From assembly GCA_024220525.1 (NCBI GenBank), contig JAMYWO010000078.1:81147-112521 (forward strand): a stretch of DNA of 31,375 nucleotides, written 5' to 3'. Every line of letters starts with the position of its first letter. Within the stretch, counting starts at the first letter, position 1. The translations under genes were made by a program, and so were the position numbers. The notes under the pieces were generated by a model, which was not told the origin of the DNA, ran no database searches, and worked only from the letters and a program-made list of their open reading frames with translations. Origin of the DNA: Cochliopodium minus. Its lineage: Eukaryota; Discosea; Himatismenida; Cochliopodiidae. Shown piece by piece: positions 1-29,701 of this stretch.

Positions 1-1402
1 CAAGATTTGGGTTGGAGTTCTTGAAAAAGATCATGTCAGAATCTTTGAGGGATTTCAGATTTTCCAATGCTATTTCTATGTTTTCAATGTTGTATTTTTT
101 GATGAACCAATCACAAAATTCCTTCACTATAATAATAAGAAAAATATAAATTTTCAATTGAATAAATGTAGGGAGATATAAAATATCTTCAACATATAAT
201 TAAATCATATTTTACCGTTGAAGCAATATGCTATTCCATCTTTTTTCTTCAAAATTGTATCATCTTTGATGTTGTTGAGCAAATCCTATAATTAATAATG
301 AAAATTTTTAAAATTCAACATATCAAAATAATTACCCAATTAGGTCTGCACATTGAACACATAAAAAATGAAAGAAAATTAAAAATGATAATAATATGAC
401 AAATATAAAAAACGTAATATTTACACTGAATATCCAATTGTCACTGCGAGTGATTCTATTGGAGGAACTTCATCTCCCCAAACTATTTTTTGGATTCGTC
501 CTGAATTGAATGCACTCTCTTCAGAAGGAAAGATGATCACATCTTTTTGAATGGCAATAAAGAAGAGAACAGGCTATTAGATAGAGGTTAATGGAAAAAC
601 AAATACATCAATGAAAATTTTACCCTATTTTTATTTGCTTTTTCATGGATTGGAAAACAAACAAAGTCGTTCCAAAAAACAGATGAATCTTTCCTATAAT
701 TCAATAACTCAACATGGCACTATATTTTGAAAAGAAAATAAAATAAAGCGTTTTCAAAAAAAATAATATGAGAAATTTACAGGTATTCCTTTTTGTAAAC
801 ATTCCCTCATTTTAAGAACAACATCCTATATTTGATTTTGAATGAAATAAATAAACTATTGAATATTTTTTTTTTCCCCTTCACCTTGTCTGAATTTCTC
901 CCCTGCAAAAACCTGCAATTTTTCCCAAGAATATCATTCTCAGAGTATCCGGTCATCGTTGTGAACTATATAAAAAAAATATTAGGGATATGTCCAAAAA
1001 TATTACAACAGTTTAAAATTTGTTAGTAAAAACTTTATATCCGCTAACAAAGTTGTAAAATTTGGACATATCTAAAAAATATTTTAAATTTATATATTTT
1101 TTATAAACTTTTAAATTCAAAATAAGAAAATTACTACCTTCTTGTTTTGCATAATGATGGGACAATCAGGTAATCCATTGTGGCAAATAAGCATTGATTC
1201 GTGTATCGATCGGATGAATTTGTATTCTAATTTTTGAAAAAAGTTATTTCATATCACAAATTACAATCAAATCTTTACCTTTCAAAATCAATTTTTGGAT
1301 TGATTTGAGCTTTTTTTGTGTTAATTTAAAATCAGTAGCTTTCCATACTTGGTTAAACCCTTCTGCTTGTTCTTGCAAATAAATATCGTTATAGTTTCCC
1401 AT
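1..1402 (-). CDS. LOV-domain blue-light photoreceptor with DEP-like domain, 5' part (runs off the left edge)
   Basis: Exons on the minus strand are 1279-1402 (start ATG), 1138-1226, 885-965, 781-825, 624-719, 425-573, 336-345, 216-285 and 1-126. All junctions are GT-AG and phases match across every one, giving about 263 residues. Residues ~55-157 are a PAS/LOV domain: GKNCRFLQG carries the flavin-adduct cysteine (C88) with R89 and Q92, followed by ELLNYRKD (N120), FWND (N130) and IAIQKDV (Q154), the glutamine that flips on adduct formation. All diagnostic LOV residues are present, so FMN binding and a blue-light photocycle are expected from the family. Residues ~199-258 resemble a DEP domain (GIAYCFN..EFCDWFIKKYNI), which in other proteins directs membrane or GPCR/RGS association. 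The N-terminus has no signal peptide. The LOV call is strong and the DEP call moderate; domains beyond the edge (RGS, for example) cannot be seen. Confidence 0.88.
336..345 (-). other. 10-nt microexon of the LOV-DEP gene
   Basis: The exon is flanked by a 79-nt intron (346-424, acceptor TGTGCAG) and a 50-nt intron (286-335, donor GTAATT). It supplies one base to close a Val codon plus Pro-Asn-Trp. Skipping it would shift the frame, because 10 is not a multiple of three. It links the LOV domain side to the DEP-like domain. Confidence 0.75.
987..1072. repeat. Fold-back (MITE-like) element, copy A, in a LOV-gene intron
   Basis: The left arm begins GATATGTCCAAA and the right arm ends TTTGGACATATC, its reverse complement. 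The inner arms TTTGTTAG and CTAACAAA also pair, as do ACAAC and GTTGT. The element lies inside intron 966-1137. It shares its inner sequence and orientation with the fold-back at 20126-20199. No clear target-site duplication is seen. Confidence 0.6.
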
Positions 1403-3248: not shown

Positions 3249-6200
3249 CAACTTCATACTCTTGCAAGCTGTTAAAAGGATGAGGCAAATGGTTGATGAG
3301 AAGCTTAGATGCCTCAGAAGGCAAAGCGAGGTTGTTGATGATGACTTTCTTATTCTCCTTGTGCAACTCTTGCAACTCATTCTCTTTTGCTTTCTTTTTT
3401 TGTTGTTTGGCTTTGGTGACTGGATCCACCTTTCTTTTTCTCTTTTGGTTTTTGACTCCGTCTCCTGCCCAACTTCCCCAACCTAATAATTCTTCCTCCT
3501 TCTCCTCAAGTACTTAAAAAAAAAAAAAGTTTTAAAAAAAATTGAAACAAAAAATAAAAAATTAAAACATAAAATAAACAAAAAATAATTTAATAAATAA
3601 AAAATAATTAAATTCTTTATTAATTTAAATAAAAATACAATTTCTTTTTACCATTCTCATTTAGAACTTGATTTCTTTCCATTTCAAACTCTTCAGCAAC
3701 ATCATCAACAGCAAACGCTTGCTCGACAATCTCTTTTTGGTTCACGTTGTTGCTCTCCAAAAGGTTGAACATGCTCAAGTCCTTCTTGGAAGACTTCGTG
3801 GGCTCCTTGTAAAGTTCCTGAGTCTCGGTGATTCTCATCTTCTCCTCGTTTCTCTTCTCCTTCAATCGCTTCTTCTCCGACTTTTCTTTGCTTTCTTTTT
3901 TGTCTTTGGCGATCCAAGGATTGTTGGTGATCTGAAGTACACTTTCACTGTCACTGTCATCTTGGAGTGAGATGATCTTCATATTTTCTTCTCCTTTTTT
4001 TTCATCATCTCCTTCTACTTCTTCATCTTCATCAGAGATGACATTGTTCTGGTTTTCATTTTCGCTGCTGTCAAGGTTTTCATCCTCAGAGTTGTTTTCT
4101 TCGTCATTCTCGTTGAGATTAGAAGCAGGATTGACGAAATGATTGATGTCACCTTCATCACCATCAGATTCACTTTCCGATGAAGAATCCTCCTTCTCCC
4201 CATTAGATTCGTTCTTCTCCATAGCAGTCTTGTTGGAAACAGTTTGGGGAACGTTCTTTTGTTTCAATTTTATTTGAGTTTGGTTCAAAATTTTGGAGAA
4301 TTCGTCAATTTCTCTTCTCTCCTCTTTGTCGTCAATCTCAGGGAAATCAGTGACCTTAAACTCAAGACTCTTATTGTGTTTTTTGTTGGTGTTGACCTCC
4401 AAGTTTCCTTTGAAAGAAGTCTTGTGGGAAACAGTGTGAGAAGAAAAGTCCTCACTGACAATACTAGAAGATTTGTTTCCCTCCTTTTGTTTCTTTTGGA
4501 TGGATGCTTTGTGCTTAGCAATAATGTCGTGAAGTTCAGTCTTCTTTTCCTTTTTTTGAGGGTTTTCCATTCTCTCTAGATCTTCTTTCAACTCCTCTGC
4601 ATGTCTCTTCTCCTTTTCCAAGGCTCTTTGCATGAACAACATACCAGAAACTCCGTCTTTTTGATTTTCTACAGCTTCCTCCTCCTTCTCGCTTGAATTT
4701 TGACTCTCTTCCTCACTATCTTCAACTCCCATCTTCTTTTTCAAAGATCTTGCAAGATCTCTTTGTTGTTGGATTTGATCTTTGATTTCTGTTTCTTTCT
4801 TAAGACCAGTTCTGAGCATTCTCTTTGTCCAATTGCTTGAGCTCGAGTGTCTCAATCTTGCTCTTTCCAAAGCTCTATCCTTCTCAGCTTTTACTCTTTC
4901 TCTCTCAATATCCTCTTCATCCATTTGTTCCTCATCATTCTTCTCTCTTTTTCTTCTCAAAATTTTTCTGTATTTTTTGGATTTGATCTTTTTTTGTCTC
5001 TTTGCTTTTAACTCTTCGAAGAACATAATACTTCTCAATTTCTTGAGTTCCTTTTCTCTTTCTCTGAGTTGTTCGAGGGTGGTTTCGTTTTTGGTGAGAT
5101 CTTCGTATTCCTTTATTTGTTGCTCGTCAATACCACTTTGTCTAAGGATGTTTTGGATTGTGTTTTTCAACTTTGAGTCTCCATCTTTGATCCCGAGATC
5201 TGTTATCTTAATTTGGTTTGGTTCGCTTCTTCCGAAAGTGAGACCAGTCTTTTAAATTTAAAGAATTAAAATTTAATTAAAATAAATTGATTAAAAATAT
5301 TATAATTTTAAAAAATTTTATTGTACAATATTTAAAAAGAAATTTCAAATAGAAAAACAAATTTGAAAAATTTTTTTTATATTTTACTTCTCTGTTTTGC
5401 TCAATGACTTGCTCCCACTTGTTTACTTTGTTCTTTACTTTCTTGTAGGAAATGTCTCTGTTGATGTTTTTCACATCCTCCTCTTCCAAAGGCTGAGCAG
5501 TAGGCCTGGAACGCTTTAGTTTCTCAATGTCTTGCTTGATGGTGTCCAACTTGGATTGAAGATCCTTGTTTTTGTTTAGTGGATCCACGAGATCTTCTAA
5601 TTGAAGATTATCATTGTTATCATACGGGTTTTTTTTGTATTCTCCTTCTTCTTTGAAACTCCCCTTTATTTTTTTCTTCTTCATTCCGAGCATTCCTTTC
5701 AATTGATCCAAGAAGTTATCATGATTCGATGATTCATTTGATTTCATCGTCTTTTCATCCTCTGAATCAAATTCTAGATCATCATTATCGTCATCTTCAT
5801 CATCAAACTTATATCCATCATCATTGTCCGAATCCAATATATCTGTCAAAGTAACGAATTTTCCATCATCTGATCCATCATTGTCCAATTCTTCTCCTCC
5901 ATCATCAGATTCATCGTATGATTCTTCAAGATCAAGCTTCTTTTTATTATTTTTGTTATTCTTGTCATTTTCTTCTACATTTCCTTGTTTTCCTTTTTTT
6001 TTCTTATTTTTTTTATCGAATATATCTCCGTATTTTATATCGTCTTGTGAATTGAATGCCTCATCTGAATCTATCTCCTCATCTTCCATTTCAAATCTTC
6101 TTTTTCTACCAAATTTTTTGCCTGAAGAATTATTTGATGAATTATTTTTGTTGAAGGAAGGTCTATTGCCAAATGAGGAAGATGATCCCTTTGATCTATC

Positions 6201-8988: not shown

Positions 8989-11765
8989 ATGAGAGAAATA
9001 ATACATTTACAGGTGAATTTAATTTTATGAGAAAATTTGATACATTTCAGTTTATTAACAACTATTTTCTCAAATATATTTGAACAATGTATAGGTTGGA
9101 CAATGTGGAAATCAAATAGGAACAAAATTTTGGGAAGTGATAACAGAAGAACATGGCATATCAAAGAGTGGACATTATATAGGAAAAGATGAAGAGTTGA
9201 TGAAAAGATCAGATGTCTATTTCAGAGAAGGAAATGGAGGCATCTATGTACCAAGAGCTGTATTGGTTGATTTGGAGACAGGTGTGTTAGATAATATCAG
9301 ATCAGAACCTATGGGAAAATTATTCAGGCCTGATAACTTTATCTTTGGAAAGAATAGTGCGGGAAACAATTGGGCAAAAGGTATTATAGAAAAATTTTTA
9401 ATATTTTGATTTTAAAAAAAATATGGATATCTTCTTATGAGTGATTTAGGAAAATTGCTCTTTCAATATTAAATATAATTTTGATTTTATTTATATAATT
9501 TTATTTGAGAAAAATATCGAAAAAATAAAAATTCAATAATATGTTTTTTCATCCTTTGTTCATCATTTCAATTTTTTTATAAATAAATCTAGAAGGATTT
9601 TAAATTTTAAAAAATTTTTCTTATGAAATCATTTTAATAAAAAAGTATCTTTCAGACCAAGATACTCATTTCTAAAAATTTTTTTCTTTAAAAAAAATAA
9701 AGGACACTATACTGAAGGAGCAGAACTTTGTGAGGGGGTAATGGAGGTAGTCAGAAAAGAAGTAGAAGACACTGATACTTTTCAAGGGTTTCAAATGTGC
9801 CACTCTATTGGTGGTGGAACTGGTATATTCTTTTAATTTTATTTTTATTTATTAAAAAATTTTCAATTTATTTTAATTTTTTTATTCATTAAAAATTTTT
9901 TAATTATTAATTTTATTTTTAAATTAATCAATTTTATTTTAAGGATCCGGTATGGGAACATTGATTCTCCAAAAATTAAAAGAAGATTATCCAGACAGAA
10001 TGATTTTGAACTATTCCGTCTTTCCCTCCCAAAAAATGTCTGATGTAGTTGTAGAACCATATAATTCTTTATTGACTATCCATCAATTAATTGGTAACAA
10101 AGTTTTTAATTTTTATTTATTATATATTTTTTATAATTTTTATTTTTAATTTTTATTTTTTTTTTGATTTTTTATTTTATATTTTATATTTTATTTAAAT
10201 TTTCAAATACTTTTTTTTTTAATTTTTTATTTTGTTTAGAAAATTCAACTGCCACAATGGCTTTCGATAATGAAGCTCTGTATAATATAACCACCAAAAA
10301 CTTGGGATTGAAAACAGCCAATTACCAAAGTTTGAACTCTTTGATCTCCAGTGTAATGAGTGGGATCACTTGTAAAAAAAAAAACATTTTTTTGACTTGA
10401 TTGTTGATTTGATTTAATTTTAGTTTAATAATTTTATTTTTTTACCATTTTTTTTTAGTTAAACATTTTTTTGTTAATTTTTTTGATTTAAAATTTTTAA
10501 TTTTTAAAGTTTTTTTCAACCTATCTTTTATCCAAAAAAGTTTTTTAATTATAATCAATCATTTTATTATTTAATTTTTTATATTTATTTCCCAATTTTT
10601 TTCAAATTAGTTCGAATTATTTTTAACATTTTTTTTAATTATTGATTTATTTATATTTTAATTTTCGGTCATTTTTTATTTAAAACATTTTTTTTTTTTT
10701 TAGGTTCATTGAGATTCACAGGACAACTTAATAGTGACATAAGAAAATTGGCAGTTAATTTGATTCCATTTCCAAGACTTTCTTTCTTCTGCGTTGCTCA
10801 TTCTCCCCTCTCCACTGTCAAAAATCTCACCTTCGATAGTGTCAATGTACAGGAGGTTTCTCAACAACTTTTCAATGGAGATAACTTGATGTCTGCTTGT
10901 GATTTGAAAAGCGGAAAATTTTTGACTTCATCTCTCATTTATAGAGGTAAAAAAAAAAATTATTTGGATTTGATATGTTATATTTTTCTTTTTAAATTAA
11001 TTATTTTTACTTTTTAAAATTATTTTTAATTTATTTTCAAATTTTTTTAATTTATTATTAATTATTAAATAATTTTTTTTATTTTATTTTTATATTTAAA
11101 AAATTTTTTTTATTTTATTTTTTTATCATTTATTTAATTTTTTATTTTTAATTTAATATTTTTATTTATCATTCAATTTAATTTAATTTTTTTAAAGGTA
11201 AAATCTCAGCAAAAGAGGTTGATGATTATGTGATGAAGGTGATGTCCAAAAAATCCGAAAATTTTGTGGATTGGATCCCCAACAACATCAAAACTTCTCT
11301 TTGTAATGTAGCGCCAAAAGGATTTCCTTTGTCTGGAACAATGATTGCCAACACCACTTCCATCCAAAAAATTATTAAAAGGTACAAAAAAATAATTAAA
11401 TAAATAAAAAGAAAATAATAAAATTAATTTTTATTTCTCATTTTGAATAAAAAAAAGAGTTAAAGAACAATTTTCAGCAATGTTTAAAAAAAAAGCATTT
11501 TTACATTGGTACACCGGAGAAGGAATGGAAGAAATGGAAGTAAAAAAAATTCTATTTAATTTTTATTATTTTTATTATCTTTTTTTTTTTAAATCAAATC
11601 AAATTTTCTGTTTTTTAAAAAAAGTTTTCTGAGGCAGAATCTAACATTAATGATCTTTTGAATGAGTATCAACAATATGAATCTTCTGACAGCGAAAGCG
11701 GGAATAATACTACAAACAACACTTCTCATAACAATTCTCATAACAATTCACAAGACCACAACTAG
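8989..11765 (+). CDS. TUBB: Beta-tubulin, divergent isotype
   Basis: Nine exons: 8989-9012, 9095-9380, 9703-9822, 9944-10093, 10240-10371, 10704-10946, 11198-11381, 11458-11539 and 11625-11765. All are GT-AG with consistent phases, giving 453 residues. Exon 1 encodes only MREIIHLQ, including the MREI autoregulation tetrapeptide known for beta-tubulins. VGQCGNQIG, the GTP-binding [72 protein letters not shown] and EYQQY identify the family. It would pair with alpha-tubulin in microtubules. The core is unusually divergent ([15 protein letters not shown] where most have VGFAPLTSRGS), and the tail is Asn/Ser/His-rich (about 20 residues after ESSDSES) rather than Glu-rich. This suggests a specialised isotype. 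Introns are T-rich. Confidence 0.96.
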
Positions 11766-27643: not shown

Positions 27644-27925
27644 TCAGAAGAAATATTGGTCTGATTTGTAAAAAGAATTTATCAATGTTGAAGAAGAGTT
27701 AAGACGATCTAAACGGTGCAAAAGAAATGAAACCTCCTTGAATTCCTCTCCCTCTGATCTGTTCTCGTAAACTGTATTCAACTTATCCAAAATGGCAGCA
27801 GAGTTTCTATAAACGAAGAAAGGGATATAAGAATTGATATCATCCAGATCAATGGATGATTCTTCTGTACTATCGGATCCTTTCCTTAATTTTTTGATAC
27901 CTTTTTTTAAAAAAAAATTTAAAAT

Positions 27926-27962
<37 letters not shown>

Positions 27963-28602
27963 AATTTAAGAAAAAATAAAATCCAAAATAATTAAATGAA
28001 GGAGATTATACCTTGTTGTGAACCCTTCTTACGGAAGATTTTACTTTCAAGAGAATTGACTTTTTTCTTTTTATTGTTGCTTTTCATCTTGAGAATGTAT
28101 TCTTCACTTTTGTTTTTGAACTTTATAAAATCCAGGTTGGTACGGAAGTTTTTGTGTTCTTCTGAAATTTTGTTAGAGAGTGATCTTGGCGTTGTATTCT
28201 CCACATTCACACGAAATTCACTTTTTATTTTTGCTTCGTGAAATAACTGTATGTTGGTGAACATTTCCACAGTTTTGTCTATAGAAAAATAAATAATAAA
28301 AATAAAAATGAAAATAAAAATAAAAATAAAAATAAAAAATAAAAATAAAAATAAAAATAAAATGAAAAAAAAATATAACATTAAAAAAATAAAAATAAAA
28401 ATAAAAAATTTTTGAATTGAAAAAAAAAAATTACAATAAAATTTTAAAATATAAATATGATTAAATAAATAAAGATATTACTCAAATAATTTTTCTTGGT
28501 GTACTCCTCATAAAACTCGTTGAAAAGTGTGATTTGTATGTTTTCGTAGTCTTCCTTCTCTTGCAAATTTTCCCCTTCTTCCAAGTCTTCGTTTTTCTCC
28601 AT
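27644..28602 (-). CDS. Unknown charged protein (214 aa)
   Basis: Exons 28482-28602, 28012-28278 and 27644-27900 join in phase. The product begins MEKNEDLEEGENLQEKEDYE (acidic), then FNEFYEEYTKKNYLNKTVEM, a helical charged middle (RSLSNKISEEHKNFRTNLDF), a strongly basic patch (KMKSNNKKKKVNSLESKIFR) that could act as a nuclear signal, an acidic Ser patch (DSTEESSIDLDD), and a helical end (FFVYRNSAAILDKLNTVYEN, FLLHRLDRLNSSSTLINSFY). I recognise no family. The acidic and basic segments and final helices would fit a nuclear adaptor, but that is inference. Both introns hold A5T/A6T repeats. Confidence 0.65.
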
Positions 28603-29112
28603 CGTAACCTGATTAACCAAACACTGTAATACCTTTGAAATGACAAGAGAAGCTAATTTTTTTTAAAAAAAATTGTTATTTTTTATTTGATATTTTTACA
28701 TTTTTACATTTTTATATTTTTATATTTTTATATTTTTTTATTTTTTATATTTTTATATTTTTTTATTTTTTATATTTTTTATATTTTTTTATTTTTTATT
28801 TTTTTATTTCAAAAAATTTAATTTTTTAAATTTTTTGTTTTTAAAAGTTTATTTCGTTTTTTTTTTATTTTGTTTATTTTTTTTATATTTTTTTATTTTT
28901 ATATTTATTTTTTATTTTTTTTATATTTATTTTTATTTTTTATATATTTTATTTATTTTTTTATTTTTTATATATTTTATTTATTTTTTATTTTTTGTTT
29001 TATTTTTTATTTCAAATTTTTTATTTTTTATTTTATTTTTATTTTTTTATTTAGTTATTTTTTATTTTATAATCATTTTTTGTTACCTCTTTTCACTTTT
29101 TCGTTTTGCAAG
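28603..29112. repeat. T-rich microsatellite tract
   Basis: About 500 nt of TTTTTA/TTTTATA-type repeats. It ends in an acceptor-like TTTTCGTTTTGCAAG before the orphan plus-strand exon. The hydrophobic Phe/Ile/Tyr-rich ORFs here are repeat translations. Confidence 0.65.
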
Positions 29113-29247
29113 CTTGAACAAGAGGAAATGAAGGATGGATGGAAAAATCTGAGAAAAAACAATGACACGAATGGTTTGGTTCTGGACTCAGGATACACTT
29201 TCTCACATTCTTTGGTGACCACTTCCAAAATTTTGCAAAATATGCTG
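29113..29247 (+). CDS. Orphan exon, possibly actin-related protein
   Basis: The exon is bounded by an AG acceptor at 29111-29112 and a GT donor at 29248, and is open for 45 codons in phase 0. NGLVLDSGYTFSHSLVTTSK resembles the ATP-binding DxGYSxTH loop of actin-related proteins (ARP6/ARP10 type). Upstream and downstream exons are not found; the flanks are microsatellite. It is too short for a firm assignment. Confidence 0.4.
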
Positions 29248-29581
29248 GTGACAAAAAAAATTAAAATAAAAAAAAAATAAAAAAATTAAAAATAAAATAA
29301 AAAATAAAATGAAAAAAAAATGAAAAAAATGAATAATAAATTAATTAAAATTATTTCATTAAAATAATGTAGAATTTTTCTAATAGAAATTTGACTATAA
29401 ATGTGAAAATAAATATAAAATAAAATAAATGATAATGAAATAAATGAAAAATATAATAAAATAATCAAAGTAAAAATAAAATAAAAATAAAAATTTAAAA
29501 AAAAAAACAAAAAAAGAAAAATATGAATGAAAAAAAAAAATGTGAAGGATTAAATGGAAGATTTAAAAAAAAAAAAAATTA

Positions 29582-29701
29582 TTACTCAGGCAACATTGTC
29601 ATATATTTTTCCATGTTGTCAAGGATTTCTTTGCATAGAAGGATGATGTTTGAGACATTTGACCTCAAGAAGAAATAGTGGAGTATCTTGTCAGGGTTTA
29701 C
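29582..29701 (-). CDS. Orphan terminal exon, unknown
   Basis: Following an acceptor (TTATTAG, 29702-29708 on the minus strand), 39 codons end in TAA. The sequence is VNPDKILHYFFLRSNVSNII and on through CKEILDNMEKYMTMLPE, an amphipathic helical end. No family is recognised. Its upstream exons should lie to the right, but that side is an (A6T)n tract with an n at 29780 and then the Ran pseudogene. Confidence 0.35.
   Translation of the reverse strand, partial: VNPDKILHYFFLRSNVSNIILLCKEILDNMEKYMTMLPE

Follow-up and report, generated by a model that had tools for sequence, protein, structure and literature searches.

In LOV proteins, blue light leads to a bond between a cysteine and a flavin, upon which the glutamine of the last strand rotates and the linker shifts. 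Known LOV outputs are kinases, DNA-binding domains, F-box and RGS domains, and others. Phototropins have the same LOV core as the genes described here, with the NCRFLQ motif and the flavin-contact residues N, N and Q. Their LOV domains are also the closest solved structures (2.5e-24), among them LOV1 of a phototropin that is presumably from Chlamydomonas. They differ in their effector, which here is not a Ser/Thr kinase: the sister genes found in this work have an N-terminal LOV domain ahead of Ras regulators.

Fungal RGS-LOV proteins such as BcLOV4 likewise tie a LOV receptor to G-protein signalling, possibly at membranes, as far as the passages available from PMC8993538 go. In contrast, the sister genes at loci C347 and C413 have no RGS domain. 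They carry a RasGAP or a RasGEF, which act on small GTPases, and LOV comes first. The copy in the stretch studied here is incomplete.

The RasGAP of C347 resembles the neurofibromin / p120GAP family in its profile, its arginine finger and its FLR motif, and differs in being diverged and headed by LOV. C413 resembles the SOS, RasGRF and CDC25-type RasGEFs in having RasGEF_N followed by RasGEF, and differs in the LOV domain and coiled-coil-like stretch in front. Engineered optogenetic Ras tools, for example light-recruited GEFs, also let light control Ras exchange; excerpts of PMC10363612 describe engineered dimerizers for light control of Ras. These are man-made, unlike the natural fusion proposed here.

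No natural LOV-RasGAP or LOV-RasGEF fusion was found in the available parts of the open-licence literature; the LOV-diversity and RGS-LOV work by Glantz and colleagues lies outside that scope. The passages available from PMC2566311 and PMC12525002 contain no such fusion. A term search of the review PMC8993538 gave no occurrence of 'RasGAP' or 'RasGEF', and a similar search of the review PMC12558739 found neither 'Ras' nor 'RGS' as whole words. The sensor is a known one, with an output class that we could not find described in the literature searched.

The window, which is the whole stretch of 31,375 nucleotides that was analysed, is C78:81147-112521 from the 44.65 Mb genome (598 contigs) of Cochliopodium minus. 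Quite probably, a gene for a flavin blue-light receptor with the domain order LOV - DEP-like - RasGAP has its 5' part in it. Four LOV genes were found in all, a LOV-RasGEF sister among them. The features are as follows, in window positions except for the last.

1279..1402, minus strand: exon 1, start codon and N-terminal helix region (MGNYNDIY...LILK); 95.1% identity to C84
1138..1226, minus strand: exon 2, where the LOV core begins (EYKFIRSIHESMLICHNGLPDCPIIMQNKK); from the spliced model, Pfam and the C84 alignment
885..965, minus strand: exon 3, GKNCRFLQG with the adduct cysteine C88; its 81 nt recur in C347 and C413
781..825, minus strand: exon 4, LOV core (DVVLKMRECLQKGIP); a 45-nt exon also in C347
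624..719, minus strand: exon 5, flavin-contact asparagines N120 and N130; from the spliced model and the C84 alignment
425..573, minus strand: exon 6, last LOV strand with Q154, and linker; the shared LOV cassette stops at its phase-2 intron
336..345, minus strand: exon 7, a 10-nt micro-exon; C347 has one of equal size, place and phase, and in C84 the donor is lost
216..285, minus strand: exon 8, first part of the DEP-like module; from the spliced model, Pfam and the DEP-profile comparison
1..126, minus strand: exon 9, remainder of the DEP-like module, open at the window edge; the exon continues in C84 and C347
27644..29701, minus strand: five exons, all open and with GT..AG introns, for the putative C-terminal half of a sister of the LOV-DEP-RasGAP type; from homology to C84
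L024, about 8732-5245, minus strand: the C84 copy of the LOV-DEP-RasGAP gene, with two frame breaks and the micro-exon donor lost

Joined in frame on the minus strand of 1-1402, the nine exons (124, 89, 81, 45, 96, 149, 10, 70 and at least 126 nt) give a spliced translation of 263 aa. All eight introns are GT..AG, with compatible phases across the junctions, and the protein has C88, N120, N130 and Q154, which is the full LOV signature. The gene runs past the left window edge, so that only its 5' part is within the window. A model that leaves out the 10-nt exon is also in frame in the window, and C84 has no donor for it. This model was rejected because C347 keeps the exon at the same size and phase. 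In C347, skipping it would break the reading frame.

Pfam finds PAS_9 in residues 61-157 of the spliced protein at 67.6 bits, against a cut-off of 27 (E=1.3e-18). A preliminary description of this DNA had proposed the nine-exon LOV gene with the same four residues; re-splicing reproduced it exactly, and the Pfam result bears out the LOV half of its protein. The top NCBIfam model is the YtvA blue-light receptor family (2e-31), at 109 bits under an equivalog cut-off of 250. The GxNCRFLQ motif with the adduct cysteine is present, as GKNCRFLQG, and is also found in C347 and C413. Adduct cysteine, both asparagines and glutamine are conserved in 3 of the 3 aligned LOV domains (window, C347, C413).

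Compared with C84, the exons are identical at 747 of 788 bases (94.8%) and the introns at 367 of 477 (76.9%, with 204 gap columns excluded). The exon mismatches at codon positions 1, 2 and 3 number 7, 6 and 28. Because the exons are more alike than the introns, and mismatches are biased towards the third position, there is independent support for both coding constraint and the exon borders. On this sequence evidence, the LOV signal is not a matter of chance, and the domain is predicted to bind flavin and to respond to light.

The module behind the LOV domain is harder to name. The preliminary description called it DEP, and DEP (PF00610) is indeed the only Pfam family reported at E<=10 for the window sub-sequence. 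The scores are 13.2 bits for the whole protein and 15.2 for the sub-sequence, so this part of the claim stays below the Pfam cut-off of 32.7. The whole C347 protein has no DEP match in Pfam at E<=1, and its DEP-like sub-sequence has a sole, sub-threshold match to MJ1010-like_2nd. Against solved structures, the best three of nine matches of the window module are DEPTOR, at E=0.021 to 0.13, which is not significant alone.

A profile of six DEP domains from this genome scores 10.8 bits on the window, 13.6 on C84 and 7.1 on C347, values equalled by 0, 1 and 8 of 3000 shuffles. Pairwise comparison with the DEP domain at C4 is weak, with 146, 47 and 149 of 2000 shuffles as good for window, C84 and C347. 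In a profile-profile comparison with five DEP domains, one of 200 shuffles scored higher. Taken from these comparisons, a diverged DEP-like module is likely but not proven. The DEP fold often acts at membranes or receptors.

With the spliced window protein as query, a six-frame search across the genome found 24 exon matches at E<=1, which is a lower bound as the best candidates alone were scored; all of these fall on four loci, C78, C84, C347 and C413. Searching the genome with PAS_9 brought up 15 exon places, two of which belong to C78 and C347. The DNA pattern that codes for C[R/S]F[L/F]QG occurs at eight places in the genome, and the reversed pattern, used as a control, at four. Four of the eight are the LOV loci. 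Three more, which are all the others except C514, were translated and are not LOV.

The two top PAS_9 places, both on C3, were set aside as not LOV: by eye they read PH - PAS - protein kinase, without the LOV motif. The genes concerned, at C3:219000-228900 and C3:246500-256400, appear by eye to be related to each other.

The sister at C347 has 13 exons, which give 694 aa up to a stop codon in the order LOV - DEP-like - RasGAP. Pfam assigns PAS_9 at 64.4 bits, and RasGAP at 31.9 bits in the whole protein and 39.8 bits in a 318-aa sub-sequence (cut-off 28.3). The closest match of the RasGAP part is neurofibromin (3.9e-10). In that alignment TLYR stands against TLFR, which we take to be the arginine-finger motif of RasGAPs, and FLRY against FLRF, FLR presumably being a RasGAP motif too. 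The catalytic arginine finger is thus kept in C347, and TLYR is present in C84 as well. A RasGAP profile made from three copies matched 10 distinct solved sequences at E<=0.01, and all 10 are Ras GAPs.

C84 has the same LOV - DEP-like - RasGAP order, but the gene is broken. Besides the lost donor of the 10-nt exon, two exons go out of frame at runs of A, one as found by alignment and one by eye. This means that C84 is either a decaying copy or suffers from assembly or sequencing errors. Its RasGAP piece alone reaches 22.9 bits, below the Pfam cut-off of 28.3.

At C413, 11 exons give 1081 aa in the order LOV - coiled-coil-like - RasGEF_N - RasGEF, where the coiled-coil-like stretch was recognised by eye. 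The Pfam scores are 53.2 bits for PAS_9, 32.8 for RasGEF_N (cut-off 28.3) and 132.7 for RasGEF (cut-off 23.1, E=1.7e-38). Without its low-complexity linker, the GEF part is closest to a guanine nucleotide-releasing protein (1.7e-27), with CDC25, RasGRP1 and SOS as the next matches.

Neither of the full C347 and C413 proteins has an RGS domain in Pfam at E<=1. The preliminary description had seen kinship with fungal RGS-LOV proteins and a GPCR pathway. Because these two sisters, read to their ends, finish in a RasGAP and a RasGEF without RGS, that reading has no support. The light-controlled signalling switch it also proposed survives in altered form: going by the sisters' effectors, the target would be small Ras-type GTPases, in place of the GPCR and heterotrimeric route, and control by light is itself predicted.

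Regulators of this kind are numerous here, with exon matches across the genome for at least 168 RasGEF, at least 69 RasGAP and at least 46 DEP. Large RasGEF, RasGAP and DEP sets are common in amoeboid protists. Next to the RasGAP on C308, no adjoining LOV part was found.

The exon structure points to how the family may have arisen. Over about the first 200 residues, the window protein is identical to C347 at 140 of 200 positions and to C413 at 111 of 197. Exon 3 measures 81 nt in all three genes. In both the window and C413, exon 6 measures 149 nt and runs from phase 0 to phase 2; in C347 it is merged into a 248-nt exon, of which it makes up the final part and which ends in that phase too. Past this phase-2 intron the lines diverge: the RasGAP line goes on with the 10-nt exon and the DEP-like part, the RasGEF line with the coiled-coil-like stretch. 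We infer that one LOV cassette was probably shuffled, at one intron, onto both a RasGAP and a RasGEF.

At C4, a DEP match at 57107-57283 (38.1 bits, above the cut-off) precedes a RasGAP match at 56026-56175 (24.6 bits, below it) on one strand, as seen by eye. A DEP-RasGAP gene without LOV, as there may be at C4, is therefore a possible source of the fusion.

The window contains a second piece of such a gene. At 27644-29701 lies the coding sequence for the C-terminal 322 aa of a C84-like sister, which picks up behind the exon with the arginine finger and runs to the stop codon. Compared with C84, exon mismatches at the three codon positions are 11, 7 and 47 of 321, with 6 gap columns, and the introns are identical at 387 of 483 bases (80%, 609 gap columns excluded). 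By itself the piece has no Pfam match at E<=0.01; its assignment as a RasGAP half depends on homology to C84 and C347. It is not adjoined by LOV, DEP-like or arginine-finger exons. It begins beside a simple repeat containing an N, and adjoins what we take to be a Ran-like GTPase gene (about 30272-29819, minus strand), which by eye has in-frame stops and missing pieces and is probably broken. The piece could be a truncated copy in its own right, or it could belong to the LOV gene of the window as a 3' half that was misplaced.

The RasGAP end of the window's own copy is a prediction. The window gene and C84 are homologous up to the window edge, and C84 and C347 continue from there into RasGAP, and for this reason the window copy is expected to do the same. 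With a RasGAP 3' half present in another part of the window, the copy could also be split or rearranged. This leads to the best surviving alternative, in which the window copy codes for the LOV and DEP-like parts and then soon stops, or has some other C-terminus, and works as a light-driven membrane or scaffold switch. LOV-RasGAP would then be limited to C347, and formerly C84. The position of the RasGAP half fits this: it shares the strand of the LOV part, 26 kb upstream of it, and sits beside the broken Ran-like gene. It is nevertheless unlikely, given that exon 9 keeps 97.6% identity to C84 as far as the edge, where C84 and C347 go on into RasGAP.

PAS/LOV folds can also sense redox. A LOV module kept for flavin redox or for protein-protein sensing, with Ras regulators that answer to redox state and not to light, would agree with this property, and the light role here is itself predicted from sequence. 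We consider it improbable, as the adduct cysteine and the N, N and Q are kept in the window, C347 and C413, and the exons are under constraint. Least probable of all, by a little, is that the gene in the window is decaying or arose as an artefact of assembly: C84 has its frame breaks and lost donor, and in the window the order of the two gene halves is wrong, the simple repeat beside the second containing an N, yet 9 of 9 window exons are open, with GT..AG introns and a third-position bias.

Returning to the LOV - DEP-like - RasGAP receptor, a mechanism can be sketched. Blue light of about 450 nm would bond C88 to the flavin held in the domain. The last strand, with Q154, and the linker behind it would change as a result, which could reposition the DEP-like module and the GAP domain, on the membrane or relative to each other. 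This would shift the access of the GAP to membrane Ras, and so alter Ras-GTP hydrolysis nearby. LOV-RasGEF (C413) would have the opposite job, with Ras loading changed by way of the coiled-coil-like stretch.

The light response, its sign and its role in the cell are all predictions for these LOV-Ras regulators. The sign could take three forms: the two proteins might be push-pull antagonists, they might respond to different intensities by way of their dark-recovery times, or they might act in different places. A wider proposal is that this is a two-sided natural Ras light switch, where an ancestral LOV cassette was exon-shuffled to both RasGAP and RasGEF and blue light sets the off-rate and the on-rate at once. 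This is put forward tentatively, with rather less than an even chance of being right.

Ras may thus be steered directly by light in C. minus. If natural LOV domains do sit on both an activator and an inactivator of Ras, light enters the Ras network directly, with no membrane receptor. Such regulators would offer a way, open to testing, in which light could influence movement or development of a protist. Optogenetics builds links between light and Ras by hand; evolution may supply single-chain versions. A two-sided LOV-Ras switch, if true, would be a new class of photoreceptor output, as well as a single-chain optogenetic Ras tool.

The window and genome also contain some unrelated genes. On the minus strand, 3620-5251 holds a gene for a Utp14-like nucleolar protein (Pfam, 148 bits). 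On the plus strand, about 9095-11500, there is by eye a multi-exon and rather divergent beta-tubulin-like gene. A hydrogenosome-bearing amoeba was considered and rejected: the single Fe-hydrogenase-like gene found in the genome presumably resembles the iron-sulphur protein Nar1, judged from its C-terminal RW.
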